A stretch of DNA of 64,000 nucleotides from NCBI RefSeq assembly GCF_003030345.1, contig NZ_CP028158.1:7006001-7070000 (forward strand). Direction: 5' to 3'. Below, in pieces: positions 34,383 through 41,470 of this stretch. The notes under the pieces are model-generated. The model was not told the DNA's origin. It saw only the letters and a program-made list of their open reading frames with translations, and made no database searches. How positions within the stretch are numbered: position 1 is the first letter of the stretch; each line of letters begins with the position of its first letter. The position numbers were made by a program, and so were the translations under genes. The DNA is from Plantactinospora sp. BC1. Lineage in GTDB: Bacteria; Actinomycetota; Actinomycetes; Mycobacteriales; Micromonosporaceae.

Positions 34383-35156
34383 TCAGTCGACCGCGTCGGT
34401 CCGGCCGGCCCGCTCCTCCAGCCGTTCGAGCCGGGCGACGATCGGCTGGAGTTCCCGGCGTACCGCGGCGGCCAGCAGCGCGGCGACCTCGGGGGACGGC
34501 GCGGCGCTGCCGGACGGCGGCTCCGCCGGGGTCTGGGCCCGCAGGTGGACGTAGCCGGCCAGCGCCGCCGCCACGGCCCGGCGGGTCAGTCGCAGCTCGG
34601 CGCCGAGTGACCGCAGCAGTTGCCCGCCGACCCCGTCGGGCTCGGCGACCAGCCCCAGGAGCAGGTGTTCGCAGCCGACGTAGTTGTGGCCGAACGCGGT
34701 CGCCTCGGTGACGGCCAGCTGTAGGGCGTTCGCCGCCGGGCCGCTGAAGTGCAGGCTGTCGTCGGGGTCGCCGCCCGGCTCGGCGGCGGGTTGGCCGGCG
34801 AGGTCCTGGAGCACCCGATCGGGCTCGATCTCCTCGACCCGCAGGACGTGCAGGGCCAGGTTGGTGCCCTCGGCCAGCATCCCGGCGAGCAGGTGGGCGG
34901 TGCCGACCGCCGCCGAACCCTCCTCCCGGGACCGGTCGACCGCGAGCAGCACCGTGGCGCGGGCCCGGGGGGTGAAGTTCGGCAGCCGGGTGGCCAGGTC
35001 GGCGTCGTCGAGGTCGCCGAGGGCGGTCTCCCGGATCGCGGTCACCCGGCGTACGGCCTGTTCGAGTGCGCGCTGGCAGACCGCCGAGACCGGAATCCCG
35101 GCGACCCGTACCGCCTCGGCCAGCTCGTCGGGCAGATAGACGTTGATCTTCGGCAT
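34383..35156 (-). CDS. Ribbon-helix-helix domain fused to two Clp-N repeats (unknown regulator/adaptor)
   Basis: A 257-residue fusion. Residues 1-36, PKINVYLPDELAEAVRVAG and VSAVCQRALEQAV, form a strand-helix-helix unit like CopG/CcdA-type DNA-binding antitoxins. Residues about 60-118 and 138-193 are two Clp_N (ClpR) repeats: RATVLLAVDRSREEG with GTAHLLAGML, and NALQLAVTEATAFGHNYVGCEHLLLGL. Clp-N repeats normally form the N-domain of ClpA/ClpC chaperones, where they bind adaptors and substrates. There is no ATPase domain here. A C-terminal helix (about 221-250) looks coiled-coil-like. A palindrome overlaps its -10 box, and AGGAGGAG precedes the ATG. It may link DNA binding to the Clp system or titrate its adaptors; unproven. 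Confidence 0.85.
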   Translation of the reverse strand: MPKINVYLPDELAEAVRVAGIPVSAVCQRALEQAVRRVTAIRETALGDLDDADLATRLPNFTPRARATVLLAVDRSREEGSAAVGTAHLLAGMLAEGTNLALHVLRVEEIEPDRVLQDLAGQPAAEPGGDPDDSLHFSGPAANALQLAVTEATAFGHNYVGCEHLLLGLVAEPDGVGGQLLRSLGAELRLTRRAVAAALAGYVHLRAQTPAEPPSGSAAPSPEVAALLAAAVRRELQPIVARLERLEERAGRTDAVD

Positions 35157-35191: not shown

Positions 35192-35213
35192 ACTATAACC
35201 CCGCTGGGGTTAT
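35192..35213 (-). promoter_or_regulatory. Palindromic operator overlapping the -10 box of the RHH-Clp gene
   Basis: ATAACCCC-GCT-GGGGTTAT (35195-35213) is a perfect 8-3-8 inverted repeat. On the minus strand it overlaps TATAGT (35197 down to 35192), a near-consensus -10 hexamer for the RHH-Clp gene 36 bases downstream. A bound RHH dimer here would block the promoter, so autorepression is likely. Its right end touches the stop codon of the upstream HTH gene. Confidence 0.75.
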
Positions 35214-35647
35214 CAGCTACCCCCATCCGTGGTCCGCAGGTCCGCCTCGTCGTCGGCGACCGGCCCGCCCAGCTCACCGGTGCCGTACGGGTCCAGGGTC
35301 TCCAGCACCCGCCGACCCCAGCGCTCGTGTGCCGCCTGCCGGCTGACCCCGGCCGCCCGGGCGATCAGTTCCCAGGTGACCCCCCAGCGGCGCAGCCCGA
35401 CGACGCTGCCGAACGGGTCGACGCCGGACGCCAGCACGATCCGGAAGTGCACCAACTGGGACGCGATCTCGCGCTGCCGCCCGGCCGCCCCCTCCTGCTC
35501 GGCCGCCCACTCCGGGCTGCCGGGGGCCGGCCGGCCGCCGATCAGCAGGTCGGCCTGTCGGCTCGCCTCGTTGACGGCGGCGTCGGCGGCCGCCACGGCG
35601 GCGGAGGTGACGTCCACGGTGAGCGCGGTTTCCAAGAATCGATCCAT
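35213..35647 (-). CDS. HTH regulator with sigma-region-4-like helix (SRQAAHER type)
   Basis: A 144-residue protein. Residues 1-75 form a helical domain (MDRFLETALTVDVTSAAV, then AGRQREIASQLVHFR), and the HTH at about 88-112 reads WGVTWELIARAAGVSRQAAHERW, with the recognition helix SRQAAHERW. No sigma region 2 is present, so it is a one-component regulator. TAGCTT lies six bases before the ATG (leaderless) and sits inside the first of two tandem GTCAAG-N5-CTTGAC palindromes, a classic autoregulatory layout. A second member of this type at 40994-41470 has related palindromes at its own promoter. The RHH-Clp gene follows 56 bases downstream. Confidence 0.82.
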   Translation of the reverse strand: MDRFLETALTVDVTSAAVAAADAAVNEASRQADLLIGGRPAPGSPEWAAEQEGAAGRQREIASQLVHFRIVLASGVDPFGSVVGLRRWGVTWELIARAAGVSRQAAHERWGRRVLETLDPYGTGELGGPVADDEADLRTTDGGS

Positions 35648-35648
35648 G

Positions 35649-35696
35649 CTGTCAAGCTAGCCTTGACAGAAATCGCTGTCAAGGTGGGCTTGACGG
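35649..35696. promoter_or_regulatory. Two tandem palindromic operators at the HTH gene promoter
   Basis: Operator 1, GTCAAG-CTAGC-CTTGAC, is at 35651-35667; operator 2, GTCAAG-GTGGG-CTTGAC, at 35678-35694; the centres are 27 bp apart. Both are perfect in their 6-bp arms, and in operator 1 the match extends to 8 bp. Operator 1 contains the -10 hexamer TAGCTT (minus strand, 35659 to 35654). Confidence 0.85.
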
Positions 35697-35730
35697 AAAA
35701 TAACGGCCTGCGATCCGTCGGGGGCCGGGT

Positions 35731-36050
35731 TACGCTCGACTGATCGCCACGGCCGCGCCGCCAGACGGACGGCGTCGCCTCGGCGGTGGGGTGGCCGGAA
35801 CAGCCGGCCACGGATCGGACGGAGTGGACGATGGCGGCGGCAGGGCGGCGAGCTAGCCACGCCGAGCTGGGGAACGAGGACAGCGTCCTCGCCTGACCCC
35901 CTCGGCCCGGCTCGGCGTACCGCCCCTTCGGCCCCGGCCAGCCACGTTCCGCGCGAACGCCTCCGGACGGACACCGCGAGGACCCCGTACGGCTTCCGCC
36001 GTGCCGGGCTCCGGTACGCGTTCGCCACCCCACCCGACAGGGCCTCTCCG
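35731..36050 (+). promoter_or_regulatory. Promoter and structured leader of the alanyl-tRNA synthetase gene
   Basis: TACGCT (35731-35736) is a plausible -10 box; no clear -35 is seen. The following leader of about 310 bases holds a perfect hairpin GTGGCCGG-AACAG-CCGGCCAC (35791-35811), a short ORF with its own ribosome-binding site (35831-35896), and a GAGGAC-AGC-GTCCTC hairpin inside that ORF (35876-35890), then GC-rich sequence up to the alaS ATG. No T-box core (GGTGGNACCGCG) is found. Confidence 0.45.
35831..35896 (+). CDS. Putative Ala-rich leader peptide upstream of alaS (21 aa)
   Basis: The frame starts MAAAGRRASHAEL and ends with Ala before TGA; six of 21 residues are Ala, including three in a row (GCG GCG GCA) straight after the start. 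GGAG lies six bases upstream of the ATG. A hairpin (35876-35890) falls near its 3' end, where a ribosome stalled at the early Ala codons would leave it free to fold. This layout fits attenuation of a tRNA-synthetase gene by uncharged tRNA-Ala, but a chance ORF in Ala-rich DNA is a real alternative. Confidence 0.4.
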   Translation: MAAAGRRASHAELGNEDSVLA

Positions 36051-38723
36051 ATGCGATCCTCAGACATCCGCCGCAGCTTCCTCGACTACTTCACCGAGCG
36101 CGGCCACACTCCCGTCCCGTCGAGTCCACTGATCCCGGACGATCCGGCGCTGCTGCTCACCATCGCCGGGATGAACCAGTTCAAGACGCACTTCCTCGGC
36201 GAGTCCACGCCACCCGCACCGCGACTGACCAGCGTGCAGAAGTGCGTACGCACCAACGACATCGACAACGTCGGCCGGACCAGCCGGCACGCCACCTTCT
36301 TCGAAATGCTCGGCAACTTCTCCTTCGGCGACTACTTCAAGGCCGAGGCGATCGGGTACGCCTGGGAGCTGCTGACCCGGCACTACCAGCTCGACCCGGA
36401 CCGGTTGTGGATCACCGTCTTCACCGACGACGACGAGGCGGTCGACCTCTGGCGCCGGGTCGGCGTGCCGGAGCGGCGGATCCAGCGCCTCGGCATGGCC
36501 GACAACTACTGGTCGATGGGCACACCGGGACCGTCCGGCCCCTCCTCGGAACTCTGCTACGACCGGGGTCCGGCGTTCGGGCCCGAGGGCGGCCCGGCGG
36601 TGAACGACGAGCGGTACGTCGAACTCTGGAACCTGGTCTTCATGCAGCACCGGCGCGGCGCGGGCGGCGTCAAGCGGGACTTCCCGATCCTCGGCGACCT
36701 GCCGAGCCGCAACATCGACACCGGGCTGGGCCTGGACCGGCTCGCCACGATCCTCCAGGACGTCGAGACGGTCTGCGAGACCGACCTGCTCGCCCCGACC
36801 CTGCGGGTGGTGGCCGAACTCGCCGGCCGGCCGTACCCCGGCCGGGACGGCAGCCCCGAGTCGGTGTCGTTCCAGGTGGTCACCGAGCACGCCCGGACCG
36901 CCGCGTTCCTGATCGCCGACGGTGTGCTCCCCGGCAACGAGGGACGCGGCTACGTACTGCGCCGGATCATGCGCCGGGCGGTCCGGCACGCCCGGACACT
37001 CGGCATCGAGGAACCGGTGCTGGGCGCGGTCACCGGCAGTGTGATCGCGAACCTCGGCACCGCCTGGCCCGAACTCGTCGCCCAGCGCGAGCTGGTCGAG
37101 GCGGTCACCGCGCACGAGGAGGAGACCTTCACGGGTACCCTCCGGCAGGGTGGCCGGCTGCTCGACGCGGCGATCGGCCGGGCCCGCGAGACGAGCACCG
37201 GCCGGCTCTCCGGCGAGACCGCGTTCGAGCTGCACGACACCTACGGCTTCCCGATCGACCTCACCGTCGAGGCGGCCCGGGCGGCCGGGCTCGACGTCGA
37301 CCGGGACCGCTACGCCACGCTCCTCGACGAGCAGCGCCGACGCGCCCGCGACGGCGGCCGGGACCGCGCCGCGGCGGCGCCGCACCGGATCCGGAGCTAC
37401 CGGGAGCTGCTCACCCGGCACGGTCGGACCGACTTCGTCGGCTACACCGACCGGCAGGTCGAGACCGAGGTACTTGCCGTGCTGCGGGACGGCCGGCCGG
37501 TCGAGTCGGCCGGCGAGGGCGACCGGGTCGAGCTGGTGCTCCGGCGCAGCCCCTTCTATCCGGAGTCCGGCGGGCAGGTCGGCGACGCGGGACGGGTCCG
37601 GACCGCCGACGGCGGGCTGGTCCAGATCACCGACACCCGGTACGGGCTGGACGGCCTGCACGTGCAGTACGGGCGGGTCGCCTCCGGCGAGGTACGCCCC
37701 GGCGAGCCGGTCGCGGCGCAGGTCGACGGCGAGCGGCGGGCGGCCACCGAGCGGTCCCACTCGGCGACGCACGTGCTGCACGCGATGCTGCGCCGGGTGC
37801 TGGGCCCACACGCCCGCCAGCAGGGTTCGCTGGTCGCGCCCGGCCGGCTCCGGTTCGACTTCGCGCACTTCGCACCGGTCGACGAGACCGCGCTCGACAC
37901 CATCGGCACCCTGGTCGACGACTACCTGCTGGCCGACCCGGAGGTGCGGGTCTGGCAGGCGAGCCGGGCCGAGGCGGAGGCGGCCGGCGCCACCGCGTTC
38001 TTCGGCGACCGGTACGGCGAGCAGGTCCGGGTCGTCGACATCGGAGACGCGTCCCGGGAGCTGTGCGGGGGTACCCACGTCGGGCACGGCGCCCAGGCCG
38101 GGCGGGTACGCATCCTCGGCGAGTCCTCCGTCGGCACCGGCGTACGCCGGATCGAGGCGCTGACCGGCCGGGACGCGCTCCGGCACGCCGACACCGAACG
38201 GCGGTTGCTGGCCGAGGTCGGCCGGCTCGTCGGCGCCCGACCCGAGGAGCTGCTCGACACCCTCGGCAAGCGGCTCGACGCGCTCGGCGCGGCCGAGGCG
38301 GCGCTGCGCCGGTACCGGCGGGCCGAACTCGACTCGATCGCCGGGACGCTGGTCGCGGAACGCCGGGCGGTCGGCTCGGGTTGGCTGGTCAGCGCGCGGC
38401 GCGACGACCTGACCCCCACCGAACTCCGGACGGTGGCCAGCGGCGTACTGGCGCGGAGTCCGGCCGGCACCCCGACGGTGGTGGTGTTGGCGACCGCGGA
38501 CGACGAGCGGGCGCAGCTCGTCGCCGGGCTGGACCGGACGCTGCTGGACCGGGGCGGCCGGGCCCGTGACCTGCTCGCGGAGCCGGGTCGGCTGATCGGC
38601 GGGGGTGCCGGCGGGACCGGCAACCTGGCCCACGCGGGCGGCCGGCGGGCGGAGCGGGTCGGCCAGGCGCTGTCCCGGGCCGAGTCGGCGGCGGCCGACC
38701 TGCTCAGCCGGCACCCCGGCTGA
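36051..38723 (+). CDS. alaS: Alanyl-tRNA synthetase, divergent (probably second) copy
   Basis: Charges tRNA-Ala. The 890-residue protein is full length: class II catalytic core with SVQKCVRTNDIDNVGRTSRH, FFEMLGNFSFGDYFK and GLGLDRLA; editing domain with SHSATHVLHAM (H570, H574) and CGGTHVGH (C672, H676), the zinc-dependent mischarge-clearing site; and a shortened DHHA1-type C-terminus rich in Ala/Arg. The core resembles other bacterial AlaRS more than the usual actinobacterial form (which from memory reads AGMVQFVPYFLGQQT where this has AGMNQFKTHFLGEST), and the usual neighbours (aroE, mltG, ruvX) are absent. That suggests an acquired or specialised second copy, possibly for resistance or stress. 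ATG at 36051 without a clear ribosome-binding site. Confidence 0.9.
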   Translation: MRSSDIRRSFLDYFTERGHTPVPSSPLIPDDPALLLTIAGMNQFKTHFLGESTPPAPRLTSVQKCVRTNDIDNVGRTSRHATFFEMLGNFSFGDYFKAEAIGYAWELLTRHYQLDPDRLWITVFTDDDEAVDLWRRVGVPERRIQRLGMADNYWSMGTPGPSGPSSELCYDRGPAFGPEGGPAVNDERYVELWNLVFMQHRRGAGGVKRDFPILGDLPSRNIDTGLGLDRLATILQDVETVCETDLLAPTLRVVAELAGRPYPGRDGSPESVSFQVVTEHARTAAFLIADGVLPGNEGRGYVLRRIMRRAVRHARTLGIEEPVLGAVTGSVIANLGTAWPELVAQRELVEAVTAHEEETFTGTLRQGGRLLDAAIGRARETSTGRLSGETAFELHDTYGFPIDLTVEAARAAGLDVDRDRYATLLDEQRRRARDGGRDRAAAAPHRIRSYRELLTRHGRTDFVGYTDRQVETEVLAVLRDGRPVESAGEGDRVELVLRRSPFYPESGGQVGDAGRVRTADGGLVQITDTRYGLDGLHVQYGRVASGEVRPGEPVAAQVDGERRAATERSHSATHVLHAMLRRVLGPHARQQGSLVAPGRLRFDFAHFAPVDETALDTIGTLVDDYLLADPEVRVWQASRAEAEAAGATAFFGDRYGEQVRVVDIGDASRELCGGTHVGHGAQAGRVRILGESSVGTGVRRIEALTGRDALRHADTERRLLAEVGRLVGARPEELLDTLGKRLDALGAAEAALRRYRRAELDSIAGTLVAERRAVGSGWLVSARRDDLTPTELRTVASGVLARSPAGTPTVVVLATADDERAQLVAGLDRTLLDRGGRARDLLAEPGRLIGGGAGGTGNLAHAGGRRAERVGQALSRAESAAADLLSRHPG

Positions 38724-38891
38724 CCGGACCGCCGACCGGCCGCTGCGGAACGACCACGCTCCGGGGCCCTTCCGCAGCGCCGGGCGTGCCGGAGCGCGCC
38801 GGTCAGGAAGGCGAGGCCGAGCAGGGCGAGCGCGCCGCCGCCCACCAGCAGCGGTGCCGGCCCGACGGGGCGGCCGTCGGCGCCGGCCCGG

Positions 38892-39530
38892 TCAGACCTG
38901 ACCCGGGTAGAAGCCGTGCCGGGCGAGCGGGCCGATCAACTGCGCCTCCTCGTAGGCGAAGTGCGACAGCAGGGTGTCGGTGAGCAGGTCGATCGCCTCG
39001 CTGATCGGGCCGTAGTCGGTGGGGTTGCGGGCCAGGTGTACGAGCGCCGCGTCGACCCCCTCCAGTACCTCGTGGATCGCCAGGTGCTCGTCGTGCAACC
39101 GGTCCAGTACCGCCGCCAGGTCCGGCTGGCTGCGCCGCAGGTGCGGGAAGATGCCCTGGCTCTCCATGGTGTGGTGGGTCGCCACTGCGCGGCACTGCGC
39201 CTGGCAGACCCCGCCCAGGGTCCAGTCGTTGGCCCGGATCGTCATCATGTTGAGCTGGTCGCGGGCGTCGCCGACCTGGGAGGTGCCCTCCCTGACCTGC
39301 TGGAGGATGTCGCGTACCTGCCGAAGTTCCGCCCGGTAGTGGTCGTGCACGTCGACGAGGTGCCGGCCGGCGTACCGGCCCTGGTGCGTGAAGGTGACCT
39401 CGGGCGGCGGTTCCGGCGCGGTCGGCCGGGTCGCCTCGTCCAGCACGCTCTTCGGGCTGAGCCGCTCGGTCGGCGGGGCGGTCGGCAGCACACCGGTCCG
39501 CCGGGTCAACCAGTCGTTCTGGGTGGTCAT
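38892..39530 (-). CDS. Hemerythrin HHE-domain protein
   Basis: A 212-residue protein with a hemerythrin-like four-helix bundle: DVHDHYRAELRQVRDIL, ATHHTMESQGIFPHL, LHDEHLAIHEVLEGVD and LLSHFAYEEAQLIGPLA carry the His and Glu ligands (H, HxxxE, H, HxxxE) for a diiron centre. The region between helices 1 and 2 contains CQAQC, two Cys absent from simple HHE proteins. Likely roles are oxygen, NO or iron sensing or storage; exact role unknown. The N-terminal 40 residues are Pro-rich. It converges with alaS, and the ATG has GAAGG upstream. Confidence 0.88.
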   Translation of the reverse strand: MTTQNDWLTRRTGVLPTAPPTERLSPKSVLDEATRPTAPEPPPEVTFTHQGRYAGRHLVDVHDHYRAELRQVRDILQQVREGTSQVGDARDQLNMMTIRANDWTLGGVCQAQCRAVATHHTMESQGIFPHLRRSQPDLAAVLDRLHDEHLAIHEVLEGVDAALVHLARNPTDYGPISEAIDLLTDTLLSHFAYEEAQLIGPLARHGFYPGQV

Positions 39531-39709
39531 GACCTACCTTCACGATCTTCCGGGAGGTCTCGATTATCCGTCACGCCGGCCAGGGTGATCATCCGCAGGG
39601 TGTTCGCGCGTACGTCGGGACACCCGCCGACCATCTCGTGATCGAGTCGTGGCGCCCCGGCATCGGCTGGCGGCGACGGACCCGGGAGTGGATCCGCGCC
39701 AGGCGGTAC

Positions 39710-40882
39710 TCAGTCCGGTTGCCGGGACAGCACCGCCCGGAGCGCCTCGACCAGGCTGACCGTCCGGGGGTCCGGGCCCAGGGTGACGCGGAGGCCGTTC
39801 GTCACGTACCCGAAGGCGATCCCGCTGGCCGGGTCGGCGTAGCCGAGCGATCCCCCGTGCCCGGGGAAGCCGAAGGCGGTCGGCGACCACCAGGGCTGGT
39901 CCGGCAGGGGCAGGCCGAAGCCGAGCGCCGGTCGGGTCGGCACCATCAGCACCCGGTCGACGCCGCTGGCCTGTTCGGCGGTGGCGGCGGCGAGCGTTGC
40001 GGCGTCGAGGATCCGGATCCCGTCGACCTCGCCGATCAGGCCGGCGTAGAACCGGGCCAGCGACGACGCCGTGCAGATGCCGTTGACGGCGGGTATCTCG
40101 GCCGTCCAGGTGGCGGGGTCGGTGAGGTCGAGTGGCGGATCCGTCACCGTCACCGACCGGACCGTCAGCGAGGCCGGATCGGTGTACGCGGCGAGGATCT
40201 CGCGCATCCGCTCGGTTACCTCCTCGGGAGCCGGCGCCGGGGCCGGCTGCTCGACGAGCCGACTGACCCGGTGCGTCTCGGCGGCGGGCAGGCCGATCCA
40301 GAAGTCCAGCCCGAGCGGCTTGCCGATCTCGTCGGCGAAGTACCGGCCCAGGCTGCGGCCGGAGACCCGACGCACCACCTCGCCGACCAGCCAGCCGTAG
40401 GTCAGCCCGTGGTAGCCGTGCGCCGTGCCCGGCTCCCAGACCGGCGCCTGCGCCGCCAGCGCCTCGACGACCGGGTGCCAGGCCAGCGCCTCGGCCAGCG
40501 GAACCCGACGGTCGAGCACGGGCAGCCCCGCCTGGTGGGAGAGGAGCCAGCGGACCGGGATGCGGCCCTTGCCGGCCGCCGCGAACTCGGGCCAGTACTC
40601 GGCGACCGGGGCGGCGAGGTCGAGCTGCCCGCGTTGGGCCAGCAGGTGCGCGCAGGCCGCCGGCACGCTCTTGGTGGCGGAGTAGACCACCTGGAGGGTC
40701 TCCGCCCGCCAGGCCCGGTCGGTGGTCGGATCGGCGGTGCCGCCCCAGAGCCGGACCACCTCGCGGCCGTACCGATAGACGGTGACCGCCGCGCCCAGCT
40801 CGGACCGGGTCTCGAAGTTCGCCAGGAACGCCTCCCGGACCGGCTCGTAACCGGCTGCCACCGTGCCGCTGACCACGGACAT
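39710..40882 (-). CDS. Beta-lactamase-family serine hydrolase (esterase/EstB-like)
   Basis: A 390-residue class C beta-lactamase-fold enzyme: nucleophile motif YSATKSVPAA (S68, K71), tyrosine motif HGYHGLTYGWL, and HGGSLGYADP near the C-terminus. It has no signal peptide, so it is a cytosolic esterase or D-aminopeptidase-like enzyme rather than a secreted beta-lactamase. The ATG at 40882 is preceded by GAAGGGAAG at seven bases. It is divergent from the HTH gene at 40994, with two GTCAGG-N4-CCTGAC palindromes between the genes, so it is probably controlled by that regulator. Confidence 0.9.
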   Translation of the reverse strand: MSVVSGTVAAGYEPVREAFLANFETRSELGAAVTVYRYGREVVRLWGGTADPTTDRAWRAETLQVVYSATKSVPAACAHLLAQRGQLDLAAPVAEYWPEFAAAGKGRIPVRWLLSHQAGLPVLDRRVPLAEALAWHPVVEALAAQAPVWEPGTAHGYHGLTYGWLVGEVVRRVSGRSLGRYFADEIGKPLGLDFWIGLPAAETHRVSRLVEQPAPAPAPEEVTERMREILAAYTDPASLTVRSVTVTDPPLDLTDPATWTAEIPAVNGICTASSLARFYAGLIGEVDGIRILDAATLAAATAEQASGVDRVLMVPTRPALGFGLPLPDQPWWSPTAFGFPGHGGSLGYADPASGIAFGYVTNGLRVTLGPDPRTVSLVEALRAVLSRQPD

Positions 40883-40937
40883 CACGCGCTTCCCTTCGCC
40901 ATGGGTAGCCGCCCGGCGAACCCGTCCGGGCGACCGC

Positions 40938-40976
40938 GTCAGGGTATCCTGACATGCCACGTCAGGGAATCCTGAC
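40938..40976. promoter_or_regulatory. Two tandem palindromic operators between a serine hydrolase and an HTH regulator
   Basis: GTCAGG-GTAT-CCTGAC at 40938-40953 and GTCAGG-GAAT-CCTGAC at 40961-40976, centres 23 bp apart, arms perfect. The second ends five bases before TATGAT (40982-40987), the -10 box of the leaderless HTH gene, so it covers that promoter's upstream region. Position fits control of both divergent genes. Confidence 0.85.
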
Positions 40977-40993
40977 AGACATATGATTGCGGG

Positions 40994-41470
40994 ATGGCGG
41001 AGGAACTGGCCCCGGGGCACGCGAACCTGATCGGGTTCCGGCTGCCGGACGGGACGCTGAGCACCGCCGCCACCGAACCCGCCGGCACGGTCGGCTTCCG
41101 CGCCCGGTGCTCCTGCGGCTGGACCGGCGCCGGCGACTATCCGCCGGCCGACGAGGGACGCTGGATGGCCGCCTCCGAGTGGAGCGGACACATCAAGCCG
41201 ATCCTCGCCGCCACCCCGCCCGGCTGGCTGCTGAGCCGATCCGACACGCTCCGGGACAACGTCGCCGAACTCGCCACCACCTGGCCGTTGCAGGCGCTGG
41301 GCATCCTCGCCGAGGTCGAACGCTGGCAACGGCCACTGATCGAACGCGCCGTGGTCGCCGCCCGGGAGGCCGGACTCTCCTGGGCCGAGATCGGCAACGC
41401 GCTCGGCATCAGCCGCCAGTCGGCGCACGAGCGGTTCCGCAACGTCGTACCGGCCCGGCGGGCCAGCTGA
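40994..41470 (+). CDS. HTH regulator with sigma-region-4-like helix (SRQSAHER type), second family member
   Basis: A 158-residue protein. The N-terminal half has a CSCGW pair (C39, C41) and scattered His residues (for example H66) that could bind metal, then a helical linker (ALGILAEVERWQRPLIERAV) and the HTH at about 126-148: GLSWAEIGNALGISRQSAHERF. The recognition helix is nearly the same as in the protein at 35213-35647, though the N-terminal domains are unrelated by eye. TATGAT lies six bases before the ATG (leaderless), with two perfect palindromes just upstream, so autoregulation is expected along with control of the divergent serine hydrolase. Confidence 0.82.
   Translation: MAEELAPGHANLIGFRLPDGTLSTAATEPAGTVGFRARCSCGWTGAGDYPPADEGRWMAASEWSGHIKPILAATPPGWLLSRSDTLRDNVAELATTWPLQALGILAEVERWQRPLIERAVVAAREAGLSWAEIGNALGISRQSAHERFRNVVPARRAS

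Follow-up and report, generated by a model that had tools for sequence, protein, structure and literature searches.

Among the closest described systems, mycobacterial ClpC2 represses its own gene via the sequence CGTCAAC-n5-GTTGACG, this repression is relieved by cyclomarin A, and in many species two such sites lie over the -35 and -10 elements, with a leaderless transcript being suggested (PMC10030653, accessible text). RelI of RelS-RelI carries a helix-turn-helix (HTH) that has been likened to the HTH of ClpC2 and ascribed to a 'small family' in Actinomycetes, and the accessible part of that report gives no inverted repeats upstream of RelI (PMC13284704). Here, we analyzed a stretch of 64,000 nucleotides from Plantactinospora sp. 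BC1 (NZ_CP028158.1, positions 7,006,001 to 7,070,000; hereafter the window), in which two genes, A and B, encode HTH regulators that are each preceded by a pair of tandem palindromes (Table 1). In the family to which both genes belong, two residues of the recognition helix largely predict bases 5 and 6 of the palindrome arms in genomes outside the set from which the rule was drawn.

The original prediction had claimed near-identical recognition helices for the two regulators and half-sites differing by a single base, and both claims were borne out: the translations read SRQAAHERW (A) and SRQSAHERF (B), and exact matches were recovered for two tandem operators per gene, with GTCAAG and a spacer of 5 before A (GTCAAG-N5-CTTGAC, period 27) and GTCAGG and a spacer of 4 before B (GTCAGG-N4-CCTGAC, period 23). 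Exact copies of either pattern occur in the window only before the respective gene. When up to two mismatches were allowed, the A-type pattern was found five times compared to a shuffle mean of 1.10 (five being reached in 1 of 100 shuffles), and the B-type pattern was not enriched (5 found, 6.1 expected). The BLASTP alignment between A and B is confined to the 29-residue HTH (E 1e-6); neither protein matches Pfam above the curated cut-offs, the HTH matches to AsnC/Lrp, TetR and sigma-70 region 4 all falling under them.

The HTH profile used below (A1) matches A, B, a ClpC2-like protein of the same genome and the ClpC2 structure 8ADA. Accordingly, ClpC2 resembles A and B in its homologous HTH, in the tandem GTCA palindromes on its promoter and in their layout (PMC10030653), and the ClpC2-like gene of the same genome (at ~695.5 kb) is itself preceded by two GTCAAC-N5 sites (L106). 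ClpC2 differs in its half-site, GTCAAC with spacer 5, where bases 5-6 are AG in A and GG, with spacer 4, in B; it further differs in carrying Clp_N in the same chain, a domain that Pfam finds in neither A nor B (for A it is encoded by the next gene). RelI (9SDC) shares the homologous HTH, but has a toxin partner, and RelI-like members of AAFQR type mostly lack the sites; of the scanned neighbours of A and B (Clp_N, asparaginase, PF00144, SDR), none resembles a toxin family, the small open reading frames (ORFs) among them being unscanned. What is known thus comprises the ClpC2 operator and the ClpC2-RelI HTH similarity (PMC10030653; PMC13284704, accessible text of both), so that the earlier statement that no such operators were known to be described does not hold. 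What is new, as far as a title and abstract literature search goes, is the family-wide operator and its probable residue-to-base code: the accessible text of the ClpC2 paper describes no family-wide code (PMC10030653), and no publication on either was found in titles and abstracts, in a search that did not reach preprints, supplements or the bulk of the subscription literature.

Family members were collected using an HTH profile of 38 positions, with matches in at least 78 of 118 genomes at the level of the class and at least 166 of 200 at that of the order. The 142 profile-found members and 105 held-out members analyzed below were sampled with a bias towards high profile scores; in 60 hand-picked held-out regions, the Streptomyces-like group f4/g48 was largely skipped, limiting redundancy. 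GTCA-N8/9-TGAC was present within 450 bases upstream in 123 of the 142 sampled members and in 3 of 142 when a region of the same length beyond the HTH was taken, and GTCA palindromes with each of the other gaps from 2 to 12 occurred in 0 to 4 members. In an unbiased ranking of all 256 4-mers upstream of these members, GTCA came first by a wide margin, the runner-up 4-mer reaching 46, so that the inverted repeat proposed to be shared by the family was indeed recovered. Sites were likewise present in 97 of the 105 held-out members, and A and B both belong to this GTCA-core family, each combining a profile match with GTCA-N8/9-TGAC upstream.

Conservation was also evident at the level of orthologs. 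A-type loci carry at least one site in 17/17 cases, always with spacer 5 (26/26 sites), and B-type loci do so in 13/13 cases, always with spacer 4 (21/21 sites) and with GG in 39 of 42 arms. The nearest named relatives of A come from Plantactinospora. The same genome encodes six more HTH relatives, all six with GTCA-core palindromes near the start that differ at bases 5 and 6. Tandem sites of its relatives comprise a GTCAGC-N4 pair, a GTCAAC-N5 pair (ClpC2-like), a GTCAAC-N4 pair and a GTCA[AG]G-N4 pair, and the two own-genome members with a turn one residue longer have just one site each, GTCATC-N5 in one case and GTCAAC-N5 in the other. As GTCAAC, GTCAGC, GTCAGT and GTCATC occur in other branches, the family motif is GTCA-b5-b6. 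A regulator family on GTCARG palindromes, as first proposed, therefore stands with respect to a family-wide GTCA core; GTCARG as the motif of the whole family was rejected, as it characterizes just one branch.

In the opposite direction, from operator to gene, tandem GTCA-N8-TGAC was found in 32 and tandem GTCA-N9-TGAC in 30 of 198 genomes of the phylum, with the reversed pattern occurring 0 times among the matches listed. We inspected 60 tandem-pattern loci, 30 per search. Palindromic arms were present in 49, followed downstream by an HTH-family ORF in 40, by Clp_N alone in 1 and by neither in 8; among the 11 non-palindromic loci, 4 had an HTH ORF and 7 had none. Some tandem-pattern matches are thus not operators. 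As separate observations, one genome (G262) contains ten dispersed tandem GTCAGACACC-type matches that look like a repeat, and four matches in another (G311) also look like repeats.

We next consider the relation between helix and arm, numbering residues from the conserved Gln (Q) of the recognition helix as +1 to +6. The training set comprised 209 members whose helix could be parsed, at least one site being present in 186 of them; some had been found via the GTCA core, none had been picked on bases 5-6, and 11 longer-turn members were left out of the +1/+4 tallies. Members without a parsable helix were dropped (2 in the training set, 1 in the held-out set). Ala at +1 was accompanied by A5 in 429 of 460 arms, Ser by G5 in 108 of 124 and Thr by G5 in 16 of 24; at +4, Glu was accompanied by G6 in 159 of 162 arms, Lys by C6 in 263 of 290 and Arg by C6 in 42 of 62. 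The rule was fixed before being scored on the 105 held-out members, all from genomes outside the training set, where base 5 was called correctly in 304 of 344 arms and base 6 in 279 of 330, and the spacer was right in 164 of 167 sites. Given how common A5 and C6 are, it is the held-out contrasts that are informative, namely G5 in 37/54 arms with Ser or Thr versus 15/290 with Ala, and G6 in 16/16 arms with Glu versus 4/256 with Lys. When all data were pooled and every distinct helix entered only once, Fisher p values were 7e-15 (base 5) and 1e-14 (base 6). With Ala at +1 in A and Ser in B, the rule predicts the single base by which their half-sites differ; their own arms (AG in 4/4 for A, GG in 4/4 for B) provide consistency only, as both genes are in the training set.

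Natural variants among short spacer-4 members encoded beside a Clp_N gene are in line with this rule: GVHKKH occurs with GTCAAC (L058), AVHEKH with GTCAAG (L093), SVHEKH with GTCAGG in 3/4 arms (L090) and TVHRKH with GTCAGC in 3/4 arms (L003, L206). Small protein changes had been proposed to set both base and spacing. The first part is upheld, in that the Ala/Ser position is the one that covaries most with base 5; the spacer instead tracks helix class, with its strongest relation to +3, +5 and +6. It likely depends on the dimer that a given subfamily forms, the choice of 4 or 5 probably being set by dimer geometry.

These correlations could also have arisen if each subfamily had merely inherited a frozen helix together with a frozen operator, with no causal residue-base relation, a possibility that we consider unlikely. 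Mutual information peaks at +1 for base 5 (0.62) and at +4 for base 6 (0.95), compared to shuffle maxima of 0.20 and 0.30. Both peaks stand well clear, +2, +5 and +6 being at the null for base 5. Moreover, Ser or Thr at +1 goes with G5 across the HAK, HRK, HEK, HER and WER branches, for spacers of 4 and 5 alike. When the recognition helix was excluded from tree building, the resulting tree requires at least 17 changes at +1 and at least 6 at +4, and in independent pairs on well-supported branches the base moved in the expected way 2.4 (+1) and 1.9 (+4) times on average and never in the opposite way.

Several observations weigh against the code or limit its reach, some of them in favour of mere shared descent. 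Independent pairs on well-supported branches number just 4 for +1 and 2 for +4, too few for significance. For base 6, positions +1, +2, +3, +5 and +6 also carry information (0.21-0.31) over the shuffle maxima, and +4 is further informative on base 5 (0.48) and base 7 (0.76), this wider mutual information being due in part to shared descent. Base 5 is mixed within the A branch itself (38 AG, 12 GG and 2 others among 52 arms), two named relatives (L394, L397) have GTCAGG though +1 is Ala, and a protein of the same genome with the helix SKQSAWETH has three AG arms and one GG arm, contrary to the G5 expected from Ser at +1. The rule makes no call for Gln at +4, T6 accompanies Ala or Thr at +4 in just 16 of 28 training arms, and only one of five RelI-like AAFQR members has a site. 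For the longer-turn class, TC was set as the prediction for bases 5-6; it is present in 23 of 26 training arms, and L057 of the same genome has AC. On balance, a causal residue-to-base relation appears likely from these covariation data. To our knowledge, few HTH families have a readable code; with the present one, many regulators without a Pfam match could be assigned targets from sequence, and matched promoter-repressor pairs would become available for actinobacterial genetics.

The position of the sites relative to the putative promoters was analyzed accordingly. The distance from the distal TTGAC to the proximal TANNNT is 17 or 18 bases in 90 of 105 tandem training members, with the start at most 6 nt away; as -35/-10 spacing is thus contained within the tandem sites, operator and promoter would constitute one element. 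For gene B, no -35 was recognisable upstream of TATGAT by sequence reading. A leaderless start is plausible for both A and B, judging from the short distances between the -10-like hexamers and the ATG.

This overlap raises the alternative that a different regulator binds the palindromes, or that they are mere promoter parts given that TTGAC belongs to the -35 hexamer, their link to the HTH being indirect. The right arm of GTCAA-type sites does make a good -35, 8 of the 49 palindromic tandem loci lack both an HTH and a Clp_N gene downstream, and in the same genome (L296, 1501-1539) tandem GTCAG palindromes precede a gene that is ArsR-like as judged by eye, with an unrelated-looking HTH. However, promoter need leaves unexplained the GTCA left arm, the GTCAGG, GTCAGC and GTCATC sites and a helix covariation that is predictive in held-out genomes, and ClpC2 itself binds such a site (PMC10030653, accessible text). 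We therefore regard this alternative as very improbable.

A further question is which part of the protein contacts DNA. In the accessible text of the ClpC2 study, DNA contact is attributed to the C-terminal domain, in that R185A/R189A in this domain weakens binding and the N-terminal domain dimerises (PMC10030653), which stands against recognition by the HTH and would, if extended to the family, have the Clp_N-like domain contact DNA with the HTH just dimerising. Yet operators of this kind also precede A, B and the short members, whose proteins contain no Clp_N-like domain. The crystallized ClpC2 N-terminal fragment (8ADA) ends at residue 72, corresponding to profile position 27 of 38 and just before the recognition helix, which is consequently absent from the structure; the terms 'helix-turn-helix' and 'HTH' have 0 occurrences in the main text of PMC10030653. 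Contact through the Clp_N-like domain thus seems to us most improbable, and the family data bear on the site of ClpC2-DNA contact.

Recognition by the HTH finds a partial parallel in phage immunity repressors of the L5/TipsytheTRex kind (7R6R), in which Arg-Gln likewise opens the helix. 7R6R was matched weakly (E 1e-3), over the HTH and by the HTH profile alone; it was not among the matches listed when the PDB was searched with A or B, and a search for phage relatives gave one weak match for B and none for a short family member. According to the accessible text on this repressor, the HTH base contacts on DNA are R45, Q46 and W50, equivalent to -1, 0 and +4, with R45 and W50 being essential (PMC9283540). 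Mutation of Q46 without loss of function, and stacking of W50 on a non-consensus base, weigh against this parallel (PMC9283540). The L5-type site GGTGGc/aTGTCAAG has GTCAAG at its end (PMC5712189, accessible text). The phage protein differs from A and B in being a monomer with a second (stoperator) DNA-binding domain on an asymmetric site (PMC9283540), the sites of A and B being palindromic.

Taken together, we consider it highly probable that A and B are paralogous self-repressors with promoter-overlapping operators, a code residing in residues +1 and +4 and branch-specific sensors. In this model, for which we infer binding, repression, dimerisation, residue-base contacts and sensing from the sequences, A and B would each bind as a dimer to two GTCA-b5-b6 palindromes over the leaderless promoter of the respective gene. 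The -35 and -10 would be supplied by the operator arms in A and in most tandem relatives whose start codon is close by, so that RNA polymerase would be kept off by bound repressor dimers. The GTCA core would be read by the nearly invariant Arg/Lys-Gln opening the recognition helix, +1 would set base 5 (Ala: A; Ser/Thr: G) and +4 would set base 6 (Glu: G; Lys/Arg: C; Ala/Thr: T), such that +1 Ala of A would give GTCAAG and +1 Ser of B GTCAGG; a spacer of 4 or 5 would reflect the subfamily's mode of dimerisation. Derepression would proceed via a sensor part that differs between branches, in A and its own group possibly the neighbouring Clp_N protein and in B its N-terminal domain, and B probably controls the divergent hydrolase, too.

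Table 1. Features of the A and B loci (window positions;., no strand assigned).
Feature	Position	Strand	Remarks
Gene A	35213..35647	-	ORF; 144-aa HTH regulator, SRQAAHERW type; HTH profile match E 1.6e-13 (L015)
Recognition helix of A, residues 102-110	35318..35344	-	+1 Ala, +4 Glu; GTCAAG predicted
Proximal operator (predicted) of A, GTCAAG-N5-CTTGAC	35651..35667	.	exact; 3 nt before ATG; kept in orthologs
Distal operator (predicted) of A, GTCAAG-N5-CTTGAC	35678..35694	.	exact match
-35 TTGACA of A	35677..35682	-	distal-operator right arm plus one base; 17 nt to -10
-10 TAGCTT of A	35654..35659	-	within proximal operator; sequence reading; ATG 6 nt after
Gene B	40994..41470	+	ORF; 158-aa HTH regulator, SRQSAHERF type; best PDB match RelI 9SDC, E 7.8e-6
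Recognition helix of B, residues 140-148	41411..41437	+	+1 Ser, +4 Glu; GTCAGG predicted
Distal operator (predicted) of B, GTCAGG-N4-CCTGAC	40938..40953	.	exact; kept in orthologs
Proximal operator (predicted) of B, GTCAGG-N4-CCTGAC	40961..40976	.	exact; 17 nt before ATG
-10-like TATGAT of B	40982..40987	+	6 nt before ATG; TATGCT or similar in close orthologs
RHH-like (ribbon-helix-helix; CcdA match just under cut-off) + Clp_N protein, 257 aa	34383..35156	-	next gene after A; candidate sensor partner
Palindrome ATAACCCC-3-GGGGTTAT	35195-35213	.	between A and RHH-like/Clp_N gene; TATAGT -10-like hexamer next
PF00144 serine hydrolase (beta-lactamase fold)	39710..40882	-	divergent from B; common intergenic operator region

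The gene context points to such sensors. Clp_N was found in 56 of the 62 proteins scanned downstream of short members (72 downstream ORFs in total, 10 being dropped because of an apparent wrong frame or a far-off position). At A-type loci, a Clp_N gene follows A in L015-L020 and none is present in L021-L031 within the 1.5 kb flanks. As the likely sensor of A is encoded in the next gene, the label 'one-component', which had been applied to both regulators, is uncertain for A. Whole-protein scans of 75 of 185 members revealed Clp_N in 17, a ClpX C4 zinc finger in 6, PASTA in 6 and DUF3887 in 1. Scanned singly, the WERF-type members L242 and L219 have the ClpX-type C4 zinc finger (L213, L250, L253 and L261 share this helix type), and the WERW-type members L241, L251, L222 and L248 have a PASTA domain.

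As many members are fused to or encoded beside Clp_N, ClpX-zinc-finger or PASTA domains, these data suggest a family of self-repressors with exchangeable sensors and, more generally, a mode of sensing that relies on recognition domains of proteases and of the cell wall. We tentatively extend this to a phylum-wide set of actinobacterial self-repressors, with a causal two-residue/two-base code on a GTCA core and a DNA-binding module joined to decoys of the domains by which protein-quality machines recognise their substrates (Clp_N for ClpC, the zinc finger for ClpX) or to PASTA domains, such that each regulator would sense stress on, or inhibitors of, the matching machine; to this wider proposal we assign somewhat less than an even chance. 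The same genome also contains a tandem GTCAAC-N4 pair before a lone Clp_N-like gene with no HTH gene alongside (L076, 1501-1543), a candidate target in trans.

In contrast to tandem sites, single sites are unremarkable: GTCARGN{3,6}CYTGAC occurs 20 times in the genome and the reversed pattern 16 times. Three isolated GTCAAG-N5 sites in this genome lie inside open frames of more than 120 codons, although such frames are frequent where DNA is GC-rich. On these grounds, we rejected the idea that A and B control a regulon of further perfect sites in this genome. Spacer-4 pairs with G5 in all arms gave pattern matches in 5 of 316 genomes of the class (own genome included) versus 2 for the reversed control.

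With respect to the remaining neighbours, the interval 35213..41470 also contains other genes, including one for alanyl-tRNA synthetase. The PF00144 hydrolase is divergent from the regulator in 13/13 B-type loci (L001, L034-L045) and in 0/8 of the weaker matches (L046-L053). The product of 34383-35156 has a ClpC2-like arrangement in which Clp_N lies behind a different, CcdA-like DNA-binding domain of ribbon-helix-helix type. Between this gene and A, the ATAACCCC-3-GGGGTTAT palindrome was perfect in four of the six A loci with a Clp_N gene, shorter by one base per arm in one and imperfect in one, and is possibly the own operator of the RHH-like/Clp_N protein.

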